From the NCBI GenBank assembly GCA_900473685.1, contig UCNE01000010.1, positions 62,001 to 126,000 on the forward strand: DNA of 64,000 nt, given 5' to 3'. The position numbers and the translations under genes were made by a program. Below the pieces are notes generated by a model, which searched no databases, was not told the DNA's origin, and worked only from the letters and a program-made list of their open reading frames with translations. The DNA is from Hyphomicrobiales bacterium. GTDB lineage: Bacteria > Pseudomonadota > Alphaproteobacteria > Rhizobiales > Rhizobiaceae. Below are positions 2,842 to 55,202 of this stretch, piece after piece (the first letter of the stretch is position 1; each line of letters opens with the position of its first letter).

Positions 2842-5800
2842 ATGGTTAACCAAATCCTCCTCGACGGTCTCCCTCTCCGCCGAAGCGCGGATTCCTTAGC
2901 AGGAACAGCCTCTAAAGCCAATCTTAAGACTCCATCTCTACCGTGCGGCCGGGGAATATGGGGTGCATGGCCGTTGACTAAAAGCGCTACAATCCGTCAT
3001 CGCGCCTGGGCGCTCGCCAGGCTGGCGAAACCGTCGCTTTTTCCGGCCGTCATCGCCGTCGCCGTCGTCTTTACCGGCGGCTATTTCTTCGAGCGGCAGA
3101 ACCGCGAAAATTTCCACAACGAGCTGAAGAGCAACGTTCAAAACGAGCTCAACCTCATCTCCCTGCGCCTGCAAAGCGAGATCAACAACAACATCACGGC
3201 GCTGCGCGGCTTTGCCAACAATGTCTCCGTCGATCCGACCATAACCCAACCGCTTTTCGACCAGCTGGCCACCAAGCTGCTCATTCAGAACCCCCAGATG
3301 GTGCGCGTCAGCGCTGCACCCGACGCCGTCATCCGCATGACATTTCCGCTCGAGGGCAACGAGCGGATGATCGGCACCGACTTCAAGAAATTCGGCTCCT
3401 CACGGGTGGCCATGGATCGCGCCGCATCGAAAGCCAAGCCAATTCTGGCCGGACCGGTCAGGCTTCCAAGCGGCCGGACCGGCTTCAACCTGTTTTCCCC
3501 TGTGTTCACCCGGACCGGCGATAGCCTGGCCTTCTGGGGCTTCATGGAGGCGATCATCGATGAGCAGGATGTTTACAGCAAGGCGGGTCTTCTCGATGCA
3601 GGCAAGCCCCACGACGAAGCCGACAGCGGCCACCGGCACGCCAGCATCCAGCTGGCAATCCGCGATGTCTCGGTGAAAACCAGTGCTCAGGACGCCTTCT
3701 TCGGCGACACCGATCTGTTCGAAAAATCCCCTGTTCTCCACCAGTTGCAACTGCCTGGCGGCACCTGGGAACTGGCGGCGATCCCGGCAGACGGCTGGGC
3801 GCAGGAACCCGCCAACAGCACATGGCTCGAAACCGCGATCATCATCGCTGCCGCGATCATCATCATTCCGATTTTCCTGACCGGCGGGTTCGTCAACGAA
3901 CGTCAGCGCAATATCGCCAAGCTTCGCGCACGCGAGCGGGAACTATTGACCGTTTCGCACCGACTCAACCTGGCGCTCGAATCGTCCAAGATCGGCATCT
4001 GGGAAATTGACCTCGATACCCAGGAACGGTCATGGGACGAGCGGATGTACCACCTGCACGGCTTGCTGCCGGGCAACGGAGCCCCGAGCTATGGGGAATG
4101 GCGCAGCACGGTGCATCAGGGCGACATTGCCGCCGCATCGCTGACATTGTTCAGGGCGCTGGACGAGAATCTGGAATACCGTTCGCAATATCGCATCGTC
4201 ATGCCCGACGACAGCGTCCGCCACGTTCGCAATGCCGGATCGACCCACGCGGGCGCCGACGGCAAGGCCAAGATCACCGGCATCAGCTGGGACGTCACCG
4301 ACGACGTCATGATGACGGAGCAATTGCGAACGGCCAAGTTTGTTGCCGACCAGAAGAACGCAGAGCTGGAAGAGGCTCTTACCGGTCTGTCCGAACGCGA
4401 ACAGCAGCTGGAGGCGATGACCAGACGGCTCGACCTCGCGCTTGATTCCTACCAGTGCGGCCTCTGGGAGGCCGACCTCGCCGCTGGCGTCACCTATTGG
4501 GACGAACGCATGCATCAGCTCTACGGGCTGACCTATGTCGATGGGGTGACGTCCCACGAGACCTGGATCAACACCATCCATCCGGATGATCGCGAAGAAA
4601 CTCTTGCAAGCGTTGGCCGCACCATGTCGAGTGGCGTGCCCTATGTTCAGGCCTCCCGTGTCGTGCTGACGGACGGAACGATCCGGCATATCCGCTCGGT
4701 CGGCAAGATCCACGAGGCGCCGGGCGGCAGCCGGAAACTGATCGGCATTGCCTTTGATATCAGCGACGACGTGCTGTTGACGGAACAGCTGCGCACGGCA
4801 AAGGCGATGGCCGAGGCCAAGAACGGCGAGTTGGCCGATGCCAAAGACCGCATAGAACACAATGCGCTGCACGACCCGCTGACGGGCCTTGGCAATCGCC
4901 GCATGCTCGACATGGAGCTTGAGGCGCTATCGAACGCCCGCAAGGACGGTCTGCAGAACATCGCCATCCTGCATATCGACCTTGATCGCTTCAAGCAGAT
5001 CAACGATACGCTCGGCCATGCCGCCGGCGACGCGATGCTGGTGCACGCATCGAAAATCCTGCGCGCAAACGTGCGGGCCGGCGACATGGTCGCGCGCATC
5101 GGCGGCGACGAATTCGTGGTGCTGGTCGCCAATCCGCCGGGCAAGGCTTTCCTTTCCGGCCTTTCCGAACGCATCATCGTCCAGATGCGCCAACCCGTCG
5201 ATTACAACGGCTTTCCTTGCCGCTTCGGGGTCAGCATCGGCATTGCCTGTGCCGGCGACATGGCGATCGACGAACGCCAGCTGCTGGTCAATGCCGATAT
5301 CGCGCTCTACCGGGCCAAGGAAAGCGGCCGCAACCGGCACGAATTCTTCACCGAGGCGCTGCAGGCCGAGATCATCACGACCAAGCGCATCGCCGATGAA
5401 ATTCTCGAAGGCATCGAGCAGAACCAGTTCGTTGCCTGGTACCAGCCGCAGTTCGACGCGGGCACGCTGCGCCTCTCCGGCGTCGAGGCGCTGGTGCGCT
5501 GGAACCATCCGCGCGACGGCATTCTGACACCAGACAAGTTCCTGCATATCGCCGAGGAGCTGAACGTCGTCGCAACGATCGACCGTATCGTGCTCGACCG
5601 GTCGCTGATCGACGCGATGCGCTGGGCGGCGCTGGGCATCGACGTTCCGAAAATCTCCGTCAACGTCTCCGCCAAGCGTCTCAGCGACGACCTGCTGCTG
5701 AACTCGCTGCAGGGGCTGTCGTTCAAGCCGGGCCAGCTGTCATTCGAGCTGGTGGAATCGATTTTCCTCGACGAAAGCGACGATATCGTCACTGCCAATA

Positions 5801-39344: not shown

Positions 39345-40442
39345 CTACGCCTCTATCTGAACGTCGCCGATCGGGCGCGAACAGCAGGCGAGGATGTAGC
39401 CCTCGTCGATTTCGTCATCGAGGATGCCGCCATTGTGGTTCATCTCGACTTCTCCCGAAATCTTCATCACCCGGCAGGTGCCGCACAGCCCGCCCTCGCA
39501 GGCAGCCCCGATGCGCACGCCTGCGGCGCGCGCCGTCTGCAGAATGGTCTGGCCGGGCTGGCACTTGGCGTCCTTGCCCGCCATCGTAAACGTGATGGTG
39601 GAGACAGCGGAAGCATCCGCCTCGCCTGCCCCGGCACGAATGGCAAGCTCGGCCGGATCTGGTGCACTGGCCGGCTGAAAGCTCTCCTCGTGATAGCGGT
39701 TCATGTCGAAGCCGACGCTTTCCAGCATCGATTTGACGCCACGCATGAACGGCTCGGGACCACAGCAGAACACGGTGCGCTCGCGGAAATCCGGTGCCAG
39801 CAGTGCCAGCTTCGACGTCTCGATGCGGCCGCGCAGCCCGTGCCAGCTGTGGCGCGGCGCATGGGTCTCGACGATGAAGCCGAGATTGAGGTTCGGCATG
39901 TTGCGGGAGATGTTTTCCAGCTCGTCACGGAACAAGAGATCATCCGGCTGGCGGGCGCAGGACAGGAAGGACACATCGCTCTGCGGCGCGCAATCGGCCA
40001 TCCAGCGGGTCATCGACATCATCGGCGTGATGCCGGAACCGGCGGAGATGAACAGATATTTTTCACCCGGATGACGCACGAAGGAAAAATCGCCGAGCGG
40101 GCCGAATGCCTTCAGCTTCATGCCTGGCTTGAGGTTGTCGAACATCCAGCGCGTACCGATGCTGGAAGCCTGGGCCTTGACGGTCACCGCAACGGAAAAC
40201 GGCCGCGACGGCGTCGATGACAGGGTGTAGGTGCGCATCACCGGATCGTCTGCCGTCACCGGCAGCTCGAGCGTAACGAACTGGCCCGGCAGATAGCGGA
40301 ACCAGCTGTCCTTGTCGGCCTTGAAACCGAACGTCATCACGTCCGGCCCCTCCGCGGTAACGGAAATGCACTCCAGCAATTGCTGGCGGTCGTTGAACGG
40401 CTGCAGCTCGTCGAAGTGCCGGAAGGAGGAAGCAATGGTCAT
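39345..40442 (-). CDS. gbcB: Glycine betaine monooxygenase reductase component
   Basis: A 365-residue flavoprotein reductase. The FAD-binding domain has RTYTLSSTPSRPFSVAVTVK. The NAD(P)H domain has FISAGSGITPMMSM and FCCGPEPFMRGV. A C-terminal plant-type 2Fe-2S domain has cysteines at about 315, 320, 323 and 353 (CEGGLCGTC...C). It feeds electrons from NAD(P)H to the Rieske oxygenase GbcA, which demethylates glycine betaine to dimethylglycine. The start codon is one base beyond the gbcA stop (TGACATG), so the two are translated together. The architecture also fits vanillate- or carnitine-type reductases, but the GbcA neighbour decides it. Confidence 0.87.
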   Translation of the reverse strand: MTIASSFRHFDELQPFNDRQQLLECISVTAEGPDVMTFGFKADKDSWFRYLPGQFVTLELPVTADDPVMRTYTLSSTPSRPFSVAVTVKAQASSIGTRWMFDNLKPGMKLKAFGPLGDFSFVRHPGEKYLFISAGSGITPMMSMTRWMADCAPQSDVSFLSCARQPDDLLFRDELENISRNMPNLNLGFIVETHAPRHSWHGLRGRIETSKLALLAPDFRERTVFCCGPEPFMRGVKSMLESVGFDMNRYHEESFQPASAPDPAELAIRAGAGEADASAVSTITFTMAGKDAKCQPGQTILQTARAAGVRIGAACEGGLCGTCRVMKISGEVEMNHNGGILDDEIDEGYILACCSRPIGDVQIEA

Positions 40443-40443
40443 G

Positions 40444-41694
40444 TCAGGCAACCCGAACCAGAGATGGCGATGCCGTACGGCCCTGCAGCCGGTCCTGCAT
40501 GAAGTTGGTGTACCATTCGACGAACTGCATCACGCCGCCTTCATGTTCGGGCGAATAGGGGCCGGGCTGATAGGCGGGCGAGCGGATGCCGAAGGCGTTT
40601 TCCTCGACGATCTGGCGGTCCTGGTCGTTGGTTTCCGTCCAGACATGGGTCAGTTCTTCAAGATTGTAATCGACGCCTTCGACGGCATCCTTGTGCACCA
40701 GCCACTTGGTGGTGACCTGGGTCAGTTCTGGACCGAGCGGCAGGACGCGGAAGGTGATGGCGTGATCGGCCAGCACATGGTTCCAGGTGCTCGGGTAATG
40801 GAACAGCAGCAGCGTGCCGATATCGCTCTGGCTGACATCGTCCGAGAGCTGGCGCTTGACGGCGCGCCTGCCCGACATGGTGTAGCTTTCCGCACCCTCG
40901 ATCAGCGGCATGCGGGCAACGCGGAACTGGCCGCTCTGATCGATCTTGAACTCGCTCGGCAGGCCAGTCGCCTCGCAATGCGCCCAATGCGCGGCAATGA
41001 CCGGATCGTCCTTAGCGCCTTGGACGCCGGTTGCGGTCGGCGCTTCCGGATAGGTGCGGCAAAGTTCCGGGTGGTTTGCCGCGCAATGATAGCATTCGCG
41101 GTTGTTTTCCCAGACGAGCTTCCAGTTGCCTTTCTCGATGATCGTGCTTTCAAACGCGACCTTGGTGTCCTTCAGATTGTGCGGCGTCAGATAGGACGAG
41201 ACCATGTCGCGCATCGGCTGGAAGTCCATCGCCTCGTCGGCGAGGCAGATGAAGATGTAACCGCCGATGGTTTCGCAATGGATCGGTTTCAGGCCATGCT
41301 GGTTCTTGTCGAAATCCTCGCCCATCTGACGGGCAAACAAGAGCTTGCCGTCCAGCTCGTAGGTCCACTGGTGATAGGGACAGACAAGCTTGGCCGAAGA
41401 CCCCTTGGCGCCGGCGCAGACGCGCGAGCCGCGATGGCGGCAGGAATTGTGCAGCGCCCGGACCGTGCCGGTGCGATCACGCACAATGACGACCGGATAT
41501 TCGCCGACCTGGGCCGTGAAATAATTGCCCGACTTCGGGATTTCACAATCATGGCCGATGAACAGCCAGTCCTTGTACCAGATCTGCTCCATATCGAGCT
41601 TGTACAGGTCGGGATCGGTATAGAAGGCCTGCTCCAGGCTGTGTGTATCGCGCCGGGCCTGCAATTTACGGAGGACTTCACTGCGGAGATCCAT
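40444..41694 (-). CDS. gbcA: Glycine betaine monooxygenase, Rieske oxygenase component
   Basis: A 416-residue Rieske non-haem iron oxygenase closely resembling Pseudomonas GbcA, which oxidatively removes one methyl group from glycine betaine, releasing formaldehyde. The Rieske centre is C85-R-H87 and C105-PY-H108. The mononuclear iron site is in ENNRECYHCAANHPEL (H203, H208), and the C-terminal half contains TTKWLVHKDAVEGVDY and NDQDRQIVEEN as in GbcA. ATG at 41694 has AAGGAA 6 bases upstream; ATG 41700 abuts that site. The leader upstream carries a cobalamin riboswitch, an unusual control for this enzyme. Confidence 0.88.
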   Translation of the reverse strand: MDLRSEVLRKLQARRDTHSLEQAFYTDPDLYKLDMEQIWYKDWLFIGHDCEIPKSGNYFTAQVGEYPVVIVRDRTGTVRALHNSCRHRGSRVCAGAKGSSAKLVCPYHQWTYELDGKLLFARQMGEDFDKNQHGLKPIHCETIGGYIFICLADEAMDFQPMRDMVSSYLTPHNLKDTKVAFESTIIEKGNWKLVWENNRECYHCAANHPELCRTYPEAPTATGVQGAKDDPVIAAHWAHCEATGLPSEFKIDQSGQFRVARMPLIEGAESYTMSGRRAVKRQLSDDVSQSDIGTLLLFHYPSTWNHVLADHAITFRVLPLGPELTQVTTKWLVHKDAVEGVDYNLEELTHVWTETNDQDRQIVEENAFGIRSPAYQPGPYSPEHEGGVMQFVEWYTNFMQDRLQGRTASPSLVRVA

Positions 41695-41827
41695 GGTCAT
41701 TTCCTTGTGCTCGCCAACTTTTTCGGTGGCAGCAGGCAGGAAAGGAACCACCGCCGCGCCGGGAAAGCGCGTGGTTATCGTGGTTCTCCTTCCGGCTGCC
41801 CGCCGCAACCCAGACATCAATTTCATC

Positions 41828-41996
41828 ACAAGGCTGGTTTCCGGGCTCTGGAGCTGTCCCTACGGACTGTCCCGGCGCCTTCCCGGATTTCTCCAGTGGC
41901 CTTTTGCCGAGGTTTCGCTCCACCACCGTTGCGGGGGCAGCGCCGGATTTCGACCGGCTTCCCAATTCTCCGCCTTTACCTATAAAGGCGGCACCT
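41828..41996 (-). ncRNA. Cobalamin (B12) riboswitch upstream of gbcAB
   Basis: Read on the minus strand, the segment has the conserved cobalamin-aptamer blocks in order. It begins with AAGGTGCC, then a hairpin (CGCCTTTA/TAAAGGCG), GGGAAGCCGGT, AAATCCGGCGC, the core GCTGCCCCCGCAACGGT, GCCACTG, GGGAAGGCGCCGGG, and the B12 box AGCCCGGAAACCAGCC near the 3' end. This is a complete aptamer, not a fragment. The next gene on that strand is gbcA, 133 bases on; no other start lies between. A hairpin at 41746-41776 (AACCAC with GTGGTT plus GCGC pairs) could be part of the expression platform. B12 riboswitches normally switch genes off when cobalamin is plentiful. Confidence 0.93.
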
Positions 41997-42366
41997 TGAG
42001 TGTCTTCATCTAATCCTCAGTCCTCGAAAAACAGCCGCCAGTTAACGACATCGGATTCCAGAAAGACGACACGGCGAATATTGCATAGCGCCGCCGGCAG
42101 TCTGGTTATTTTATAAGCAGAAACAATGCGATCGGCTGATTTTCAAGCAAAAGTCCGGTTTTCAGCACGTCGCTTCGGCAAACGGCACGGATGCGGCCTC
42201 TTTGCGACATTTCGCGGCAACAATGCCGCCAGCGCCATCGCACAAGGTCGAGGCAAAAGGTTTAAGCCCAGAAAGACTGCATTAACCATAACGCAGTAGC
42301 ATTAGCTGATAAGCGATTCCGTCCCGGTGTGTTTTGTCCACACACCCCGCATTCTGGTACAGGCCG
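41997..42366. other. Intergenic region upstream of riboswitch and hypothetical gene
   Basis: 370 bases, clearly richer in A+T than the coding DNA, between the divergent riboswitch-gbcAB unit and the next gene. It should hold both promoters. A TTAACCAT sequence at 42282-42289 matches a CtrA half-site, but no second half is properly spaced. No gene is seen. Confidence 0.45.
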
Positions 42367-54773: not shown

Positions 54774-55202
54774 TCAGAACGGTTTGAGAACGACCAGGAA
54801 AACGATCCCGAATATGGCCGCGAGCGTCAAAACCCCGGAATACGTCAAGTAACCGGGCGGTTCGCGGCCAGGATCGGTCTGCAGACGGCGAAAGCTCGCC
54901 GACAGATTTCCGTGCAGCGCCGACAGGGCGATGACCAATGCCAGCTTGGCATGCAGCCAGGGCTGGCTGAACCAGTCGCCCTCCACCGCAATGACGATGC
55001 CGAATATCCAGGCAAACCCCATTGCCGGAGAGGTCACGCGGCTGTCCCACCGCTTGAGTGCTGCGACGATCTCCGTTTCATGCTCGACGCGGGGCCGACT
55101 GGCCGTCGCAAGCCAGAGCATGGCGGCCGACGACAGGACCATGCCGCCCATCCAGGTGATGACGGCAACAATATGCAGGGATTTGAACAGCAGATAACTC
55201 AT
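54774..55202 (-). CDS. HemJ/CopD-like membrane protein
   Basis: A 142-residue protein with four predicted membrane helices. Helix 1 contains LFKSLHIVAVITWMGGMV and helix 3 contains WLHAKLALVIALSALHG, the conserved histidines and tryptophans of the HemJ (protoporphyrinogen oxidase)/CopD-like group. It is shorter and more divergent than bona fide HemJ, so a role in haem synthesis is possible but not assured. It converges on the MFS gene with a single base between the stop codons. Confidence 0.68.
   Translation of the reverse strand: MSYLLFKSLHIVAVITWMGGMVLSSAAMLWLATASRPRVEHETEIVAALKRWDSRVTSPAMGFAWIFGIVIAVEGDWFSQPWLHAKLALVIALSALHGNLSASFRRLQTDPGREPPGYLTYSGVLTLAAIFGIVFLVVLKPF

Follow-up and report, generated by a model that had tools for sequence, protein, structure and literature searches.

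A cobalamin riboswitch ahead of a putative quaternary-amine demethylase gene pair in Rhizobiaceae, and its association with the corrinoid-protein gene mtgC

A complete cobalamin riboswitch lies directly upstream of a gene pair coding for a Rieske oxygenase, likely an oxidative N-demethylase of a quaternary amine, and a reductase; in related genomes, the riboswitch at this gene and mtgC, a member of the B12-dependent MtgBCD set, are largely present or absent together. The whole is best explained, with a probability that we put at roughly 0.6, by a B12-repressed oxygenase operon standing alongside MtgBCD. When cobalamin is sufficient, the leader riboswitch would repress the two-gene operon, most likely devoted to glycine betaine demethylation, and methyl groups would pass through the MtgB methyltransferase, the MtgC corrinoid protein, and the MtgD folate methyltransferase to folate; without B12, the leader would be relieved and the oxygen-dependent, B12-independent enzyme would take over. 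Transcription would probably depend on a substrate-responsive AraC-type activator, so that expression would require both the presence of the substrate and a low level of B12. As an osmolyte and a nutrient, glycine betaine is of major importance; the cobalamin-requiring MtgBCD and the oxygen-requiring GbcAB are among the routes known to carry out its first demethylation.

The features recognized in the window (the whole stretch of 64,000 nucleotides that was analysed) are the following, with the basis of each assignment in brackets:

42045..42071, minus strand: direct repeat TGTCGT-N15-TGTCGT upstream of the promoter, putative site of an AraC-family activator (inferred)
42008..42013, minus strand: TTAGAT, putative -10-like element directly before the aptamer (inferred)
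41815..42013, minus strand: complete cobalamin riboswitch aptamer (RF00174 covariance model)
41794..41810, minus strand: P13-like hairpin GGTTGC(GGCGG)GCAGCC directly 3' of the aptamer (pairing across leaders)
41739..41793, minus strand: predicted long hairpin GGAAGGAGAACC (41793-41782) / GGTTCCTTTCC (41749-41739) (folding)
41701..41706, minus strand: Shine-Dalgarno-like AAGGAA (sequence inspection)
40444..41694, minus strand: Rieske oxygenase gene, GbcA-like, putative quaternary-ammonium N-demethylase (NF058607, PF00355, PF00848)
39345..40451, minus strand: reductase gene, GbcB-like, with FAD, NAD, and 2Fe-2S domains (NF058606, PF00970, PF00175, PF00111)

The window was searched with cmscan, and a single match, to RF00174, exceeded the gathering threshold in the 64 kb. 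It spans positions 41815-42013 of the minus strand with a score of 108.6 bits (gathering threshold 31.5; E 2.9e-26) and covers model positions 1-189 of 189; the same aptamer was recovered when the whole genome of the organism was searched. The preliminary description of this DNA had claimed a complete B12 aptamer, and the Infernal result agrees with it over all 189 model positions. The three conserved blocks named there were likewise located, letter for letter, on the minus strand: the core GCTGCCCCCGCAACGGT at 41941-41925, GCCACTG at 41900-41894, and the B12 box AGCCCGGAAACCAGCC at 41847-41832. By its score and its conserved blocks, the region 41815-42013 is a full-length cobalamin riboswitch, with cobalamin as its predicted ligand. 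It lies about 130 bases ahead of the Rieske oxygenase gene, and the distance of 133 bases given earlier is correct within a few bases.

The oxygenase gene likely begins at ATG 41694, behind the AAGGAA at 41706-41701, and ATGGA occupies the corresponding place in 50 of 53 related leaders. A start at GTG 41829, giving a longer ORF, is unlikely, since that ORF overlaps the aptamer. The reductase ORF (40451-39345) overlaps the end of the oxygenase gene. In the oxygenase, the Rieske domain PF00355 and the catalytic domain PF00848 both score above gathering. The two genes had been named gbcA and gbcB from the sequence, and these names stand only in part: the best NCBIfam matches are indeed GbcA (NF058607, 542 bits, the next-best match having 118.5) and GbcB (NF058606, 377 bits), but the curated models do not call either protein because both miss the cut-offs, 670 and 500 bits, respectively. 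The ten relatives chosen for comparison, at 476-530 bits, are also all below 670. The name gbcAB is, hence, not secure for the pair, which shares with GbcAB of Pseudomonas and Chromohalobacter the two-gene layout of a Rieske oxygenase and an FAD/2Fe-2S reductase, but differs in scoring below both curated cut-offs.

The closest solved structures to the oxygenase are 3n0q, 3vca, and 4qup (548-566 bits); 3vca is presumably Stc2, the proline betaine (stachydrine) demethylase. The match to the Stc2-type 3vca/3vcp has 548 bits and is nearly full length, and the Rieske Cys/His and the two-His motif are identical by eye; we know of no riboswitch for the Stc2-type proline betaine demethylase. No substrate was assigned from the names of homologous proteins (120 of 5,996), and a PADLOC scan of the oxygenase, without matches, was uninformative. 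On these matches, the enzyme is likely an oxidative N-demethylase of a quaternary amine, for which glycine betaine is the likeliest candidate substrate. The next GbcA homologue in the same genome scores 267 bits, and there is no other clear GbcA. This distant Rieske protein (G000:C7:134001-153500; L013 4319-10712, minus strand) adjoins two 815-residue oxidases with GcvT-like C-termini and lies about 8 kb from the cobalamin riboswitch that heads cbtA. The Novosphingobium copy of the oxygenase gene (L084 51-2612) directly follows a long FAD-oxidase-like ORF, which by eye seems dimethylglycine-dehydrogenase-like and would fit a betaine pathway.

The genome also encodes three MttB-type methyltransferases. 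The gene of one of them is found within 16 kb of those for an MtgC-like corrinoid protein, a DUF1638 protein, and two methylene-tetrahydrofolate reductase pieces; the same 16 kb harbor an MtgD-like pterin-binding methyltransferase and a betaine-homocysteine-methyltransferase-type gene. This set resembles that of S. meliloti, whose MtgBCDE genes lie together according to the available part of PMC12478193. In the same text, betaine demethylation and methionine synthesis in Ruegeria need MtgC and MtgD, and MtgB homologues for different substrates in Eubacterium work with one MtgC. In that part of PMC12478193, GbcAB figures solely as an alternative route, with no report of a riboswitch ahead of it; the word "riboswitch" appears once in the paper, in a reference on glycine. 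The same work and the GbcA-like match together suggest that the oxygenase and MtgBCD would share one substrate.

The preliminary description had also pointed to the upstream regions of gbcA relatives in Rhizobiaceae, and the same aptamer does recur there. From a scan of named genomes, 170 loci encoding relatives of the oxygenase were obtained; in the best 80 of them, RF00174 lies directly upstream in 53 (by batch 20/20, 18/20, 10/20, and 5/20). These 53 are mostly from Rhizobiaceae, plus Mangrovicella (L087) and Sulfitobacter (L097), and their aptamer ends 93-173 bases ahead of the protein match. In genomes of the family of that Sulfitobacter, which we take to be Rhodobacteraceae, the oxygenase was matched in 61 of 295, and 11 of 30 loci (L103-L109, L112-L115), one of them shared with the 53, harbor the riboswitch directly upstream. 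At L088 (1505-2817), the riboswitch is 1.25 kb away from the oxygenase gene on its upstream side and heads an ORF of 357 residues immediately preceding that gene; the operon may, therefore, be longer there. In the L088 genome, mtgC was read in two pieces.

The loci without a switch directly upstream, 27 in number, were searched for remnants. A search for weak RF00174 matches (E up to 1) found none in nine of the 27, and a profile search for aptamer relics gave L070 (E 0.0057) and little else, the controls reaching E 0.37. In the leaders of L071, L072, and L076, a hairpin and box-like ends remain by eye, which is not a statistical result. Additional cobalamin riboswitches were also observed: one of 102 bits in Rhizobium tropici PTD1 (L040 791-992, minus), on the strand opposite to that of the riboswitch preceding the oxygenase gene; three within 4.2 kb around the oxygenase gene at L114, 798-990 (minus), 1182-1381, and 3837-4038 (plus); and a second one at 2846-3060 of L115. 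At L117-L120, L124, L129, and L132, which have no riboswitch, an ORF that is LysR-like by eye adjoins the oxygenase gene, which suggests that another control may act there.

The presence of mtgC was checked in 79 genomes with a MtgC query of 232 residues; the best matches showed 76-100% identity, and the next ones, at 33-41%, fell mostly in MetH-sized frames. Riboswitch and mtgC are both present in 48 genomes and both absent from 20; five have only the riboswitch and six only mtgC (Fisher 2.7e-9). For the riboswitch and MttB, the corresponding figures in 49 genomes are 25 with both, four with the riboswitch only, four with MttB only, and 16 with neither. The six genomes with mtgC and no riboswitch directly before the oxygenase gene are those of L066, L071, L072, L088, L090, and L095. 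RF00174 exceeded its cut-off in each of the 49 genomes searched, including 20 that lack it at this gene and carry one to six copies elsewhere; B12 control has, therefore, not been lost in general from these 20.

The five genomes with the riboswitch only (L036, L037, L038, L039, and L042) form one clade, and their aptamers score 56-62 bits vs. at least 79 in the other 48. None of the five copies retains any of the three core blocks exactly; among the 48 copies accompanied by mtgC, the exact form is kept by 47, 45, and 48, respectively. GGGAAGCCGGT is exact in all five damaged copies and has a one-base difference in six of the 48 undamaged ones. The B12 box of the damaged copies has three changes; with one of them, A to T, it matches the Rfam consensus at that position. 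Among the copies counted as undamaged, a single base is inserted in the core of L021 and, by eye, another near its gene start, and those of L046, L058, and L087 have one change each in GCCACTG. The split into intact and damaged copies was set after the five exceptions had been seen, and the resulting 48/0/6/25 table is post hoc, which the 48/5/6/20 table is not. Since the five copies are low-scoring and damaged, the aptamer appears to decay where its counterpart mtgC is missing.

The association was then considered on a gene tree of the 79 genomes and the window, which holds at least eight riboswitch changes and 11 mtgC changes. A likelihood test of correlated evolution gave a 2dL of 24.15 (four degrees, chi-square p 7e-5), reached in none of 100 null simulations (highest value 10.9); the fits used three starting points for the observed data and one for the simulations. 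Independent pairs on well supported branches are only two to five, none of them contrary, with a median p of 0.25-0.5; they are too few for significance. In the Sulfitobacter family, mtgC is found in all 11 loci with the riboswitch and in 17 of the 19 without; this sample adds no contrast, because 28 of the 30 have mtgC, and the 17 indicate, in turn, that mtgC does not require the riboswitch. In these distributions, the riboswitch tends toward loss or damage where the B12-dependent counterpart is absent. MetH was rejected as the driver of the pattern: it is found in 48 of 50 genomes regardless of the riboswitch state, and the two genomes lacking it both carry riboswitch and mtgC. As a separate observation, MetH seems split or interrupted in the genomes of L036, L037, L039, and L042 (G005, G006, G007, and G010, respectively), with two ORFs in G005 and one in-frame stop in each of the other three; two MetH pieces also occur in G042, the genome of L084.

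Upstream of the aptamer, a TGTCG-N14-18-TGTCG repeat precedes the gene in 67 of the 80 loci (47 of the 53 with the riboswitch and 20 of the 27 without), and the exact N16 spacing is found in 65 of the 80, vs. a background of 17 exact-spacing matches in the remaining 1,046,378 strand-bases of these loci. An element of the TTAGAT/CTAGAT/TATAGAT type lies 58-61 bases past the start of the repeat in 50 of the 67 repeat-bearing loci. A generic sigma-70 scan found no promoter at the TTAGAT of the window, from whose position the transcript would start near 42001. The repeat starts 121-323 bases ahead of the gene where the riboswitch is absent vs. 362-419 where it is present; being nearer in the former case, it makes the riboswitch look like a separate unit, placed between promoter and gene and lost with the promoter left intact. 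Among the 11 Sulfitobacter-family loci that carry the riboswitch, nothing beyond two loose matches to the repeat was seen.

The CdhR site is GGTCGC-N15-GGTCGC, which its authors, in the available part of PMC5806209, call very similar to the GbdR, SouR, and ArgR sites. The repeat of the window has the same N15 spacing and differs in the first and last base of the half-site. This CdhR-like spacing points to a substrate-sensing activator, and the repeat might be the site of a GbdR/CdhR-like member of the AraC family. A second TGTCG-N16-TGTCG repeat occurs at position 54925 of the window, minus strand, possibly for the same regulator family.

Past the aptamer, the leader sequence is variable. The P13-like hairpin, with at least six pairs and a GGYGG loop, occurs in 43 of the 48 leaders counted as undamaged, while all five damaged ones lack it, and its third and fourth pairs from the loop show two-sided changes (TA/CG/TG and TG/TA/CG/AT, respectively); neither the Sulfitobacter-family leaders nor the other riboswitches of the same genome show a hairpin of this form. 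The 3' arm of the long hairpin can alternatively pair with the ribosome site. When the window leader was folded with the aptamer and P13 forced, most of the AAGGAA was paired to the upstream TTCCTTTCC, and with the aptamer alone forced, half of it was free; in the unconstrained fold it was also largely paired, and the folding shows no clean switch. In a folding test of 47 leaders, in which the start and ribosome site were picked automatically and were six bases off in several cases, accessibility of the ribosome site went up in 10 and down in three, and the masking did not generalise. A terminator scan found no terminator-like site between aptamer and gene. Given these mixed folding results, translational control by masking of the ribosome site is a reasonable but unproved proposal.

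That a low B12 level would shift the cell to oxidative demethylation of betaine, as had been suggested for this locus, is supported by the MtgBCD-type genes and by the association of riboswitch and mtgC, which survived the tree test; the sequence does not settle the substrate. The same switch might instead serve a different quaternary amine, e.g., carnitine or proline betaine (stachydrine), with the oxygenase replacing another MttB-type enzyme that possibly shares MtgC. The missed GbcA and GbcB cut-offs, the first of which the ten relatives miss too, the 548-566 bits of 3n0q, 3vca, and 4qup, and the three MttB-type proteins of the genome are in line with such a substrate, as is the joint action of Eubacterium MtgB homologues for different substrates with one MtgC (PMC12478193, in the part available). 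Conversely, GbcA is by far the best NCBIfam model (542 bits, the next having 118.5), the operator spacing matches that of GbdR/CdhR-type regulators, and the next homologue in the genome has only 267 bits, with no other clear GbcA; we regard a substrate other than glycine betaine as possible, albeit rather unlikely.

The remaining explanations are weaker. Betaine oxidation might feed one-carbon units when B12-dependent methionine synthesis fails, and MtgC does couple betaine breakdown and methionine synthesis (PMC12478193, same part), with a betaine-homocysteine-methyltransferase-type gene near the mtg genes; but oxidative demethylation would spend, not spare, a methyl donor, and MetH (48 of 50 genomes) does not track the riboswitch, even the two genomes without it having riboswitch and mtgC, which makes this role quite improbable. 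A tuning of the methyl supply for cobalamin synthesis itself would accord with betaine being a methyl donor for methionine and SAM whose feeding raises B12 yield (PMC5282855, as far as available), with its being fed to Ensifer adhaerens (PMC9157374, likewise), and with the switch at the Ensifer adhaerens loci L043, L047, and L049; its sign is wrong, however, as low B12 would start the destruction of betaine just when methyl groups are needed, and we give it very little credit. For an aptamer that is a relic or a product of chance and does nothing at this gene, one might cite the degenerate copies in the five genomes without mtgC, but 47, 45, and 48 of the 48 copies from mtgC genomes have the respective core block in exact form while the rest of the leader varies, and this idea is hardly credible at all.

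A B12-repressed oxygenase operon alongside MtgBCD would have a parallel in the same genome, where a class Ib ribonucleotide reductase cluster with nrdE stands behind a cobalamin riboswitch, the B12-dependent NrdJ being encoded elsewhere. Other riboswitches precede bluB, the cobalt transporter gene cbtA (by about 420 bases), and an ABC-transporter ORF (by about 540 bases). The gene pair is thus added to a regulon in which the nrd cluster already represents one isozyme switch. The RF00174 elements at metE (with metH as the counterpart) and nrd (with nrdJ) share with it the aptamer class and the logic of a B12-independent enzyme repressed by B12; unlike them, the target here is a catabolic Rieske N-demethylase and the counterpart the multi-subunit MtgBCD. 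In the available text of PMC3766115, "isozymes of B12-dependent enzymes" are a category of B12-riboswitch targets, and that of PMC545781 describes nrdDG alongside NrdJ.

The most fitting reading places the gene pair among the already known isozyme operons repressed by B12, as a new member that carries this class into betaine catabolism. We hold it to be slightly more probable than its contrary that this is a third B12-dependent/B12-independent pair under a cobalamin riboswitch, with an AND-logic provided by the activator at the DNA and the aptamer in the leader, the latter decaying or being lost in lineages that have lost the B12-dependent system while promoter and operator are kept. With similarly narrow preference, this third pair, after those of methionine synthase and ribonucleotide reductase, would act in demethylating glycine betaine or a closely related quaternary amine. 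In open-literature titles and abstracts, no report was found of a cobalamin riboswitch before a betaine demethylase. Two surveys of B12 elements from 2003 (Rodionov, J Biol Chem; Vitreschak, RNA) reportedly named a B12-regulated dioxygenase/ferredoxin pair "ardX-frdX"; if this is the operon described here, only the interpretation of the arrangement is new, its observation being of earlier date.

If the proposed arrangement holds true, the supply of B12 would set how betaine is used in many alphaproteobacteria and the fate of its methyl groups, i.e., methyl-folate or formaldehyde. It would be a candidate for the conditional use of betaine in rhizobia, and it may bear on the feeding of betaine in B12 production by Ensifer adhaerens (PMC5282855 and PMC9157374, in their available parts). 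This, in turn, would place an enzyme pair arbitrated by a riboswitch in carbon and osmolyte catabolism.
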